Assembly: GCA_902533695.1 (NCBI GenBank)
Contig: CACAMV010000003.1
Span: 1 to 58,728, forward strand
Source of the DNA: an uncultured SAR116 cluster alpha proteobacterium
Lineage (GTDB): Bacteria > Pseudomonadota > Alphaproteobacteria > Puniceispirillales > Marisalimonadaceae
Length of the DNA stretch: 58,728 bases
Direction of reading: 5' to 3'
A program made the position numbers and the translations under genes. Shown in pieces: positions 41,181 through 44,192 of the stretch. The notes under the pieces are model-generated. The model did not search any database and had not been told where the DNA came from. It saw nothing but the letters and a program-made list of their open reading frames with translations. Within the stretch, counting starts at the first letter, position 1; each line of letters starts with the position of its first letter.

Positions 41181-41555
41181 TTATTTATCCATAGGTCCAT
41201 TATTTTTGTCCCAATCACTAATACCCCCAGCATTTTTAACATTTTGATATCCCATCTCTTTCATTGTCTTGCCTGCAAGTGCAGCTTGACCTCCAGCACC
41301 GCAAATAAGAATGATTTCAGCTTCTTTTTTTAGGTTAGGGTTGTAAATAGCAGTTGAATCATCTGCAATAAATTCTATCATTCCTCTTGGAATTCTTAAT
41401 GCATTTTTTATTGTACCAGTTTTATCTATTTCAGCACTATCTCTTACATCTATAAATGTTGCACTATTAGATCTATGTTTCTCTATTGCTGCGTTTGTAT
41501 CTATTTTTTCAACTTCGGAATTTGCTTCACTCAAATAAATTTTAGCTGTTTTCAT
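41181..41555 (-). CDS. Single-domain rhodanese-like protein
   Basis: This 124-residue protein has one rhodanese domain: TFIDVRDSAEIDKTGTIKNALRIPRGMIEF in the first half and the active-site loop ILICGAGGQAALAGKTMKEMGYQNVKNAGG in the second. The active-site Cys (about residue 85) is kept, so sulfur transfer is possible. A GGAG ribosome site precedes its start. It is cotranscribed with the DUF1932 dehydrogenase (6-base gap). Confidence 0.88.
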   Translation of the reverse strand: MKTAKIYLSEANSEVEKIDTNAAIEKHRSNSATFIDVRDSAEIDKTGTIKNALRIPRGMIEFIADDSTAIYNPNLKKEAEIILICGAGGQAALAGKTMKEMGYQNVKNAGGISDWDKNNGPMDK

Positions 41556-42117: not shown

Positions 42118-42597
42118 ATGAAAATATCAATACGCTTTCTAATCTATTTTTTTTTTATGTTAATGATTAATGTTTCAAATACTTTTGGGGTAAGTTCTGA
42201 CTCATCTTCAAGTTATATTGTGAAATCAACTGATTATTATGTTGCTAAAGATTTAATTGCAAAAGGTAAATATAGAGATGCTATAGAGGTTTTAAAATAT
42301 TTGGAAAAAGAAAGTTCAAAGGATGCGGATATACAAAATTATTTAGGGTTTTCTTATAGAAAAATAGATAATTTTGATCTAGCAGCAATTCACTATCAAA
42401 AAGCTTTAACTTTAAACCCAAAACACAAAGGGGCTTTAGAGTATCAAGGAGAAATGTTTCTCAGGTTGAACCAAGTTGAAAAAGCAAAAGAAAATTTGAA
42501 GAAATTGGATGAAATATGTTTTCTTGGTTGCAAAGAAATGGAAAAACTAGAATTATCTATTAAAATGAAATTAAAAAGTGTAGAAAGTAAATATTAG
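42118..42597 (+). CDS. Exported tetratricopeptide-repeat (TPR) protein
   Basis: This 159-residue protein has a signal peptide (about 1-24) and two to three TPR units: AKDLIAKGKYRDAIEVLKYLEKES, DIQNYLGFSYRKIDNFDLAAIHYQKALTL and ALEYQGEMFLRLNQVEKAKENL. It therefore likely acts as a periplasmic protein-binding scaffold. Two cysteines are at DEICFLGCKE, a possible disulfide. GAGGATAAAAA lies just before ATG 42118. It is divergent from the DUF4864-like gene and 12 bases before the CoA-transferase pair. Confidence 0.8.
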   Translation: MKISIRFLIYFFFMLMINVSNTFGVSSDSSSSYIVKSTDYYVAKDLIAKGKYRDAIEVLKYLEKESSKDADIQNYLGFSYRKIDNFDLAAIHYQKALTLNPKHKGALEYQGEMFLRLNQVEKAKENLKKLDEICFLGCKEMEKLELSIKMKLKSVESKY

Positions 42598-42609
42598 GAA
42601 AATTTAATT

Positions 42610-43452
42610 ATGTTGCCTTTTGAAAAAATGAGTGTTAACGAAATTGTTTCTGAAGTTCATGATGGTGCATTGTTAGGTGTTCCAGCTGATTATTCTGGTG
42701 TTCCGATGTCCTTTACTAAAGAACTTATTAAAAAGAAAATTAAAAATTTAAAACTATATTGTTTGCCTTTAACTACAATTCAAGGAGATATGTTAATTGG
42801 TTCTGGGTGTGTTGCCGAAATTGAGGCAGCTGCAGTTAGTTTAGGGGAATTTGGACAGGCTCCAAGGTTTCAAGACGCAGTTATTAATCAAAAAATAAAG
42901 GTAAGAGACTCTACTTGTCCAGCTTTGCATGCGCAACTTCAAGCTACTGAAAAATCAGTTCCATTTATGCCTTTGCGCGGGATAATAGGTTCAGATTTAT
43001 TGAAATATAGAGATGATTGGAAAGTTATTGAAAATCCAATGAAGAACTCTGGAAAGGTGGGTGAAGAAGTCATTTTGCTACCTGCAGTTCAATTAGATGT
43101 ATTAGTTTTCCATGCTACAAAAGCTGATAAAAATGGAAACATTCAAATTGGTAGAAGAAGAGAATTAGCTACTTTAGCTCATGCTTCAAAGAAGGTTTTT
43201 GTGACAGTTGAAGAGTTTACTGATGAGGATTTTTTTCAAAGTGAAGTTCATGCTTCTGCTTCATTGCCAGCTTTATATGTTGATGGTATAGCGGAATCAG
43301 CAAATGGTGCTTGGCCTTGTGGATTAACAGAAAAATACAGTCCAGATTTTGATGAATTAAAAACTTATTCCTTAGCGGCAAGAAATCAAAGTTCATTTGA
43401 TTCATATATGAAAGGTTTCTTAAATGCTGAGAATTTACAAGCAGCTCAGTGA
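42610..43452 (+). CDS. CoA-transferase-like subunit A
   Basis: This 280-residue protein is a class I CoA-transferase alpha-type subunit: DGALLGVPADYSGVPMSFTKELI at the start, the GDMLIGSGCVAEIEAA block, MPLRGIIGSDLLKY and LLPAVQLDVLVFHATKADKNGNIQIGRRRE. Such subunits bind the CoA of an acyl-CoA substrate. It overlaps subunit B by four bases. The pair resembles glutaconate/IpdAB-type proteins more than acetoacetate:succinate transferases. Substrate is unknown. Confidence 0.8.
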   Translation: MLPFEKMSVNEIVSEVHDGALLGVPADYSGVPMSFTKELIKKKIKNLKLYCLPLTTIQGDMLIGSGCVAEIEAAAVSLGEFGQAPRFQDAVINQKIKVRDSTCPALHAQLQATEKSVPFMPLRGIIGSDLLKYRDDWKVIENPMKNSGKVGEEVILLPAVQLDVLVFHATKADKNGNIQIGRRRELATLAHASKKVFVTVEEFTDEDFFQSEVHASASLPALYVDGIAESANGAWPCGLTEKYSPDFDELKTYSLAARNQSSFDSYMKGFLNAENLQAAQ

Positions 43453-44192
43453 AAAGATATGAAATAAAATTTGAAGAAATATTGATTAGTATTTTATGTG
43501 ATTTATTATCAGATGATAATCACGTTGCCGTAGGAGCAGCCTCTCCAATACCAGGAGCTGCCGCACTTTTGGCAAAAGAAGAACAAAAGCAAATAAGAAA
43601 AAAATTAAGAGTAACTATTCTGCACTCATTACGCTTTAATAATTTTACAGACGGTGCTAGGGAATTGTTTGATTGTGCTGCCCAAGGAAGAATAGACACC
43701 TTCTTTCTTGGTGGAGTTCAAATAGATCATGAAGCAAATATAAATTTAGTTGGGACTGGAAAATACCCAAGGTTAGATAAAAGATTCTCTGGTTCATTTG
43801 GTTCTGCTTTAATGTATTATGTAATCCCAAAAGTAATCTTGTTCAGAGAAGAACATTCCCCAAGGACTTTAGTGAAAAAGGTAGATTTTATTTCTGCACC
43901 TGGTATTTCTGATAAAAATTTATATCGTCCTGGAGGACCTAAGTATTTGTTAACAAATAAAGCTTTATTTAGTTTTAATAAAAGAAATAGGAGATTTTGT
44001 TTAGAACAAATAGCTCCAGGCCTTAATCAATATGATATAAAAAAACAAACTGGATTTGAATATGATATAAATAATCAAATCAATAATTTTGCTCTACCTT
44101 CCAAAAGTAGATTGGATATATTAAGAAAAATAATAGCCCCAATGGTTTCAGAGTTTTACCCACATTTCGCAAAAAAGATATGGTTTAGTTAA
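43449..44192 (+). CDS. CoA-transferase-like subunit B, catalytic Glu not evident
   Basis: This 247-residue beta-type subunit has HVAVGAASPIPGAAALLAKEEQ, followed by FFLGGVQIDHEANINLVGTG and the GSFGSALMYYV loop. In true transferases the beta strand after the first block leads to an E-(S/N)-G motif whose Glu forms the CoA thioester; here that place reads LRVTILHSLRFNN and no such Glu is seen. IpdB, a ring-cleaving hydrolase subunit, also lacks it. The gene ends with TTAA shared with the convergent DMT transporter. So hydrolase or lyase activity should be considered. Confidence 0.78.
   Translation: MKRYEIKFEEILISILCDLLSDDNHVAVGAASPIPGAAALLAKEEQKQIRKKLRVTILHSLRFNNFTDGARELFDCAAQGRIDTFFLGGVQIDHEANINLVGTGKYPRLDKRFSGSFGSALMYYVIPKVILFREEHSPRTLVKKVDFISAPGISDKNLYRPGGPKYLLTNKALFSFNKRNRRFCLEQIAPGLNQYDIKKQTGFEYDINNQINNFALPSKSRLDILRKIIAPMVSEFYPHFAKKIWFS

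Follow-up and report, generated by a model that had tools for sequence, protein, structure and literature searches.

The window, a 58,728-nucleotide stretch of DNA from an uncultured SAR116 alphaproteobacterium, encodes two adjoining subunits, alpha and beta (Table 1). As judged from the alignments, beta is a subunit of the glutaconate CoA-transferase (GCT) type without the catalytic Glu of class I CoA-transferases, and this loss is a trait of the whole family of related pairs, which makes it more general than an earlier note on this DNA had recognized. The pair is a variant of a known fold family and not a new kind of system. In our judgement, it is very probably not an ordinary class I transferase.

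Table 1. Positions in the window of the alpha and beta genes, their diagnostic codons and two nearby genes.
Feature	Positions	Strand	Remarks
Beta subunit, GCT-type fold, without catalytic Glu	43449..44192	+	GTG start, 247 aa
Beta codons 56-65 (TILHSLRFNN)	43614..43643	+	Expected place of the class I ESG/ENG loop
Alpha subunit, bears invariant Cys103	42610..43452	+	280 residues
Alpha codons 102-105 (Thr-Cys-Pro-Ala)	42913..42924	+	Cys103 in the column of IpdA Glu105
TPR-repeat protein	42118..42597	+	12 bases 5' of alpha, same strand as alpha
Single-domain rhodanese	41181..41555	-	

The end of the alpha gene overlaps the start of the beta gene by 4 bases. Pfam CoA_trans (PF01144) matched beta (1.9e-7) and alpha (9e-10), both above the curated cut-off, and a search of PDB sequences with beta returned GctB (1poi_B, 2.2e-14), AibB (5n03 and others, ~5e-11) and IpdB (6con_B, 1.7e-4). 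These matches bear out the earlier description of beta as CoA-transferase-like; the coordinates and strand then given for its reading frame agreed with ours, and residues 56-65 read as had been claimed. The genome of the window (1.15 Mb, 59.6% complete; the window lies on contig C3) contained one copy of beta in its incomplete sequence and, at C2:7617-8929, a canonical class I pair distinct from alpha-beta. Such a canonical pair was present in 7 of the 8 SAR116 genomes searched.

The earlier note had also reported that the E-(S/N)-G motif is missing from beta. We examined the site with three kinds of alignment, namely MAFFT, an HMM whose columns were anchored at the YESG of a relative that has the Glu, and profile-profile alignment by hhalign, and all three agreed that it holds no Glu. 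The alignments retained 132 of 138 alpha and 133 of 142 beta BLAST hits (score >150, coverage >85%); four alphas and six betas were left out by score (L059-L063) and the rest by coverage, and merging duplicate rows gave 95 distinct alphas and 97 distinct betas. A conserved active-site Glu, which would have spoken against the note's claim, was not found in the candidate sites, columns 57-60, of any of the 97 distinct family betas. Column 57 held I (59), V (21), L (10) or M (7); column 58, L (88), I (8) or Q (1); column 59, G (55), H (36), N (3), S (2) or Q (1); and column 60, S (89), G (3), T (3), D (1) or A (1). Column 61 was variable, with Glu in 11/97, and column 62 held Glu in 5/97. By our reading, the column that corresponds to GctB Glu54 can be placed only to within two residues, at 57 if anchored on the GS of AibB or at 59 if placed by spacing, and neither column holds Glu. 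Further, Cys was absent from columns 55-66 of the 97 betas, the first Cys being in column 67 (2/97), and the column of AibB Cys56 was aliphatic or Gly/His. When the family was compared using hhalign with six Glu-bearing relatives, their YESG loop faced a gap in family beta, and the active-site loop therefore seems to be both altered and shortened. In class I enzymes, the Glu, within an ESG, ENG or EGG motif, lies where a strand of the beta subunit ends. The corresponding strand stops at residue 57 in the beta model, for which mean pLDDT was 75.7 and residues 89-120 fell under pLDDT 50. Acidic residues were invariant at two other positions, Asp75 (97/97) and Glu or Asp at 72 (97/97).

Among 121 genomes searched, the Glu-less beta was detected in 50 of 58 genomes of the window's own family, its own genome included. 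Identity in these 50 was 67-100%, except in G038, where the match was split in two (60 and 77%) and contained a stop; the eight family genomes without beta were 51-70% complete. Eleven genomes from other families of the order gave matches of 25-29% identity to the window beta, and the five that were examined were all Glu-bearing YESG pairs. Family beta was present in 70 of 385 alphaproteobacterial genomes (E <= 1e-30, own genome included). Members on plasmids (14 records), 62-72% identical to the query beta (L055), were found in Paracoccus, Cereibacter, Pseudosulfitobacter, Pseudorhodobacter, Sagittula, Sulfitobacter and Diaphorobacter. Those that were annotated were named CoA-transferase or CoA synthetase. 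If the pair is not a transferase, these names are wrong, as are pathway models built on them. Against an ortholog of 84% identity, dN/dS was ~0.10 for beta and ~0.06 for alpha, dS there being close to saturation; a comparison of two close SAR116 relatives gave ~0.10 for both subunits. Because dN/dS is low in both subunits, the missing Glu is not decay, and alpha-beta is under purifying selection. A Granulosicoccaceae contig (L057 860-1630) encoded a family beta (46%) for which no alpha was found; the gene upstream was a relative of HAD type II dehalogenases.

Thr102, Cys103 and Pro104 of alpha were each present in 95 of 95 distinct family alphas, and Glu72, Glu80, Arg123, Asp129, Asp136 and His168 were likewise invariant. 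In HMMER alignments, the column of Cys103 held Glu105 in IpdA and Gln in GctA; AibA had Gly there by phmmer, and 3-oxoadipate-type alphas had His. We take IpdA Glu105 to have a catalytic role, and PDB chain 6coj has Ala at its position, compared with 6co6. By phmmer, alpha was closest to IpdA (6coj, 9.6e-17), whereas the alpha profile ranked GctA first. The alpha model was poor (pLDDT 65), and all models were of single chains.

We surveyed the alpha and beta residues in loci of the family, in named plasmids and in 299 genomes drawn across the phylum, the genome draw giving 43 places with GCT-type scores (>170 bits). A Glu motif was defined as E-(S/N/G/A/T)-G near the column. The tally had 108 rows; without L217 and L219, which are self-paired, 106 pairs remained; two alphas of L211 shared one beta, and no beta was found for the Cys-bearing alpha of L212. 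Alpha His was accompanied by the beta Glu motif in 33/33 pairs. The motif was absent from all 73 pairs in which alpha had Cys (64), Glu (7), Ala (1) or Gly (1), some of which have a Glu nearby (GGEM in L172, DSEA in L214-L216 and DGEA in L218). Note that 40 of the 64 Cys pairs came from our own sample of family members and one is that of the window, so that these counts are not independent.

We built a tree from 63 pairs after thinning the family and excluding the motif columns. The Cys rows fell on one side of a short branch (93/91), and all His/Glu rows lay to one side of a second branch (97/96); six rows had long branches. Repeated co-evolution of alpha His with beta Glu was considered but not supported, as a single change accounts for the tree, which contains only one independent pair. 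As read from this tree, the residue rule is therefore a clade marker and not proof of repeated co-change. The rule allows a rapid check, by sequence, that may tell transferases from non-transferases within the GCT fold, and it singles out one residue, Cys103 of alpha. Alphas with the IpdA-like IDEG motif (L214-L216, L218) were in a different part of the tree from the family. Cys at the same alpha column was also seen in Candidatus Hestiella (L060, L061), Acetoanaerobium (L171) and two Pseudomonadota genomes (L208, L212), with alpha motifs TCG, HACY or HACA and no Glu motif where a beta was found. The source record of L171 (NZ_CP154629.1) is listed as an Acetoanaerobium noterae plasmid; at 2.63 Mb with four annotated features, it is possibly a chromosome. 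In each of L217 and L219, a single ORF matched both the alpha and beta profiles, possibly as a fused pair or through cross-matching.

Structural comparison of beta with GctB, IpdB and SCOT, which the earlier note had proposed as a check, could be carried out on the beta model. The fold matches to AibB (Z 14.1), IpdB (13.3) and GctB (1poi_B, 13.2) were near-tied, with AibB highest, and the SCOT-type match was lower (9.5). GctA/GctB (1poi) was the best sequence match both of beta and of the alpha profile; however, family beta lacks GctB Glu54, and alpha has Cys where GctA has Gln. GCT-type pairs beside 3-oxoadipate genes, such as that next to pcaF/pcaD in Azospirillum oryzae (L168), belong to the same superfamily but, unlike the family pair, combine a beta YESG with an alpha His. 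Glu-bearing pairs of this type also occurred in other families of the window's order (L174-L178), at 25-29% identity to the window beta.

Two characterized systems share the GCT fold and have likewise lost the beta Glu. AibA/AibB (5mzw-5mzz, 5n00-5n03), which decarboxylates 3-methylglutaconyl-CoA in Myxococcus xanthus, transforms the acyl moiety of an acyl-CoA, as we propose for the family pair. AibA/AibB lacks the Gct Glu, and its computed route runs through a thioester enolate that is protonated by Cys56B or, failing that, via Glu72B (PMC7756340). AibB Cys56, at the old Glu position, is not conserved in family beta (24% identity to AibB over aligned residues), and AibA has Gly where family alpha has Cys103. 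The second system, IpdA/IpdB (6con, 6co6, 6co9, 6coj), is the COCHEA-CoA hydrolase of steroid degradation. In RHA1, Gly57-beta is at the lost-Glu site; hydrolytic ring opening is assigned to the enzyme, and transferase activity was not detected (PMC5380842). The earlier note had likened the pair to IpdAB. The likeness in Glu loss stands, but invariant Cys103 replaces IpdA Glu105, the IDEG group forms a separate branch, and AibA/AibB is an equally good precedent. Because the alpha residue aligned with IpdA Glu105 is an invariant Cys, the pair, as classified by this residue, is not an IpdAB. Steroid-ring genes were absent from the annotated genes of seven plasmid loci and from the neighbours scanned, most of the chromosomal neighbours being unnamed. 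Among literature search listings, with limited coverage of subscription journals, we recognized no paper on this Cys103 family.

Outside SAR116, the most frequent named neighbour of the pair was a class III (CaiB/BaiF) CoA-transferase, which lay directly 3' of beta in 7/7 annotated plasmid loci. It was found within 400 bases downstream of beta, on the same strand, in 27 of 52 non-SAR116 loci; in a class draw of 40 chromosomal loci out of 70 matching genomes, 18 had it within 400 bases downstream and 22 anywhere in the region. CaiB did not adjoin beta in 25 of the 52 loci. Among 16 such genomes searched (E <= 1e-105), eight had no close CaiB, seven had one elsewhere and one had it ~0.65 kb downstream. 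A loose first look at 20 genomes with such non-SAR116 loci gave 12-33 CaiB candidates per genome, so that we judge adjacency by chance at the observed rate to be unlikely. Four CaiBs scanned against NCBIfam were nearest to the succinate-glutarate, mesaconate and oxalate CoA-transferase models, all below cut-off. Other named neighbours recurred less often, such as a TRAP-transporter subunit (DctM, 6/40 regions) and an ABC ATPase (7/40). Some frequent ORF clusters looked like antisense reading frames of these genes and were discounted on that resemblance.

On plasmids of Paracoccaceae and Roseobacteraceae, alpha-beta-CaiB was part of a larger cluster with genes for a 2-hydroxyacid dehydrogenase, a class II aldolase, an FGGY kinase, a TPP enzyme and a Mo S/N-oxide reductase, together with a divergent ABC transporter and an IclR regulator. 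The cluster was conserved in five of the seven annotated plasmids (L064, NC_008688.1 70262-94978; L066; L068; L069; and L070, which is cut) and partial in the remaining two. An AhpD-like gene was annotated in four of the five, a rhodanese in three and an acyl-CoA synthetase in two. The aldolase, kinase, TPP enzyme, IclR regulator and binding protein of this cluster were not found in the 40 chromosomal regions.

No CaiB adjoins the pair in the window, and the SAR116 relative of CaiB is located elsewhere. A relative of the CaiB of the Paracoccus triad (50-53%) was present in 7 of 8 SAR116 genomes searched and was not found in the incomplete genome of the window (best match 36%). Beside the CaiB in SAR116 were acyl-CoA dehydrogenase, AhpD-like and enoyl-CoA-hydratase genes (8/8 loci), HMG-CoA lyase (6/8) and biotin carboxylase (5/8). 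This SAR116 group (L141-L148), with two acyl-CoA dehydrogenases, carboxylase subunits, HMG-CoA lyase, enoyl-CoA hydratase, an AhpD-like protein and the CaiB relative in varying sets, resembles a leucine-type route to which further genes are added. A pathway for the pair was not drawn from this context, as a relative of the HMG-CoA lyase (34%) adjoined the unlinked CaiB in only one (L167) of seven other genomes.

These comparisons suggest the following scheme. Alpha and beta would form a heterodimer of the GCT fold that has lost CoA-transfer chemistry and would bind an acyl-CoA between the subunits, as in its relatives, altering the acyl group without moving CoA. The substrate may be the CoA monothioester of a dicarboxylic acid, made in many relatives by the adjoining class III CoA-transferase, and CO2 would be lost from it via a thioester enolate, as in AibA/AibB, with invariant Cys103 of alpha instead of a beta residue as the proton donor. 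Because a class III transferase that could make the diacid thioester often adjoins the pair, we tentatively regard this decarboxylation, with Cys103 as the acid, as the likeliest single reaction of a non-transferase acyl-CoA enzyme, while holding it to be somewhat less than an even chance. We infer the heterodimer itself, the substrate class, the decarboxylation and the role of Cys103, as well as any flux through the step in SAR116. In the broader reading, of an enzyme that resembles either AibA/AibB or IpdAB in its action, Cys103 would serve as acid or nucleophile. Against decarboxylation, AibA has Gly at the alpha column, and the AibB Cys56 column in family beta is aliphatic or Gly/His, so that the acid would sit elsewhere than in AibB; the 25 of 52 loci in which beta has no adjoining CaiB also count against it. 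The earlier proposal that the pair opens a ring or hydrolyses an acyl-CoA instead of transferring CoA is partly supported, but AibA/AibB-type decarboxylation ranks above C-C hydrolysis. It is conceivable, although we consider it doubtful, that a single old GCT-fold clade, here represented in Pseudomonadota, Bacillota and Thermoproteota, moved its catalytic centre from the beta Glu to a conserved alpha Cys and comprises a new class of Cys-dependent acyl-CoA lyases or hydrolases listed in databases as CoA-transferases.

A C-C hydrolase like IpdAB, in which water would cleave a beta-dicarbonyl, possibly cyclic, CoA thioester and Cys103 would stand in for IpdA Glu105, is unlikely at about one chance in a few. 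IpdAB has the same fold, lacks the Glu and is reported to open a ring (PMC5380842). Cys103 aligns with IpdA Glu105, and phmmer places alpha nearest to IpdA (6coj), though the profile puts GctA first. However, Glu105 itself is replaced, the IDEG-motif alphas lie elsewhere in the tree, and no identified neighbour points to ring degradation, most chromosomal neighbours being unnamed. The invariant Cys within a TCP motif could also serve a thioesterase that works through an acyl enzyme on Cys103, and the title of PDB 9cq2 calls a class I active-site Glu variant (CtfAB E46D) a hydrolase. That variant retains a beta acid, and a thioesterase would be futile beside a thioester-making CoA-transferase unless it acted on a later product; we consider this reading improbable.

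We give little credence to a pair that is still a CoA-transferase, acting by another residue or a ternary-complex route. It would fit the names in public records and the invariant acids of beta (Asp75 and Glu/Asp at 72), but the CoA-carrying Glu is absent from the aligned site in 97/97 rows, its loop is a gap in the profile alignment, and a class III transferase often adjoins. The loss of a known catalytic residue would also be expected of a binding or regulatory pseudoenzyme without catalysis of its own; the many invariant polar residues in both subunits, the strong purifying selection and the wide retention of the pair make this very improbable.

The genes around the pair in the window include acs, a DUF1932 dehydrogenase and an MFS transporter, from which the earlier note had drawn a possible acyl-CoA degradation route. 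These genes do lie near the pair, but their synteny with it was confined to SAR116, and a partnership in a pathway was not supported outside that group. An ORF-based blastp comparison gave MFS relatives at 22-26% in three regions; the ORF picker behind it was crude and noisy in GC-rich genomes, and we repeated the neighbour check with tblastn (1e-10). In 40 other alphaproteobacterial chromosomal regions (~11-20 kb), tblastn detected no relative of the DUF1932 protein or of that MFS (0/40); it gave distant relatives of Acs (23-35%) in five regions and relatives of EamA (25-29%) in two. Because gene order is kept across SAR116 throughout the region and the genes do not recur elsewhere, we did not take acs, DUF1932, MFS and EamA as evidence for a pathway. 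At loci L043-L050 and L058, a different gene replaces the second EamA of the window, in L043 one for a VTT-domain protein. An apparent alpha-beta-DUF1932-MFS operon in L051 was rejected, as its beta ends after ~176 residues and runs into an inverted rhodanese gene (L051 1105-2001), apparently through chimeric assembly or a local inversion. The TPR-repeat gene was found 5' of alpha in 23/23 SAR116 loci checked and was absent from the 40 other regions. A relative of the rhodanese was present in 1 of the 40 regions, and the window rhodanese was 27% identical (1.8e-21) to that of the Paracoccus plasmid cluster.
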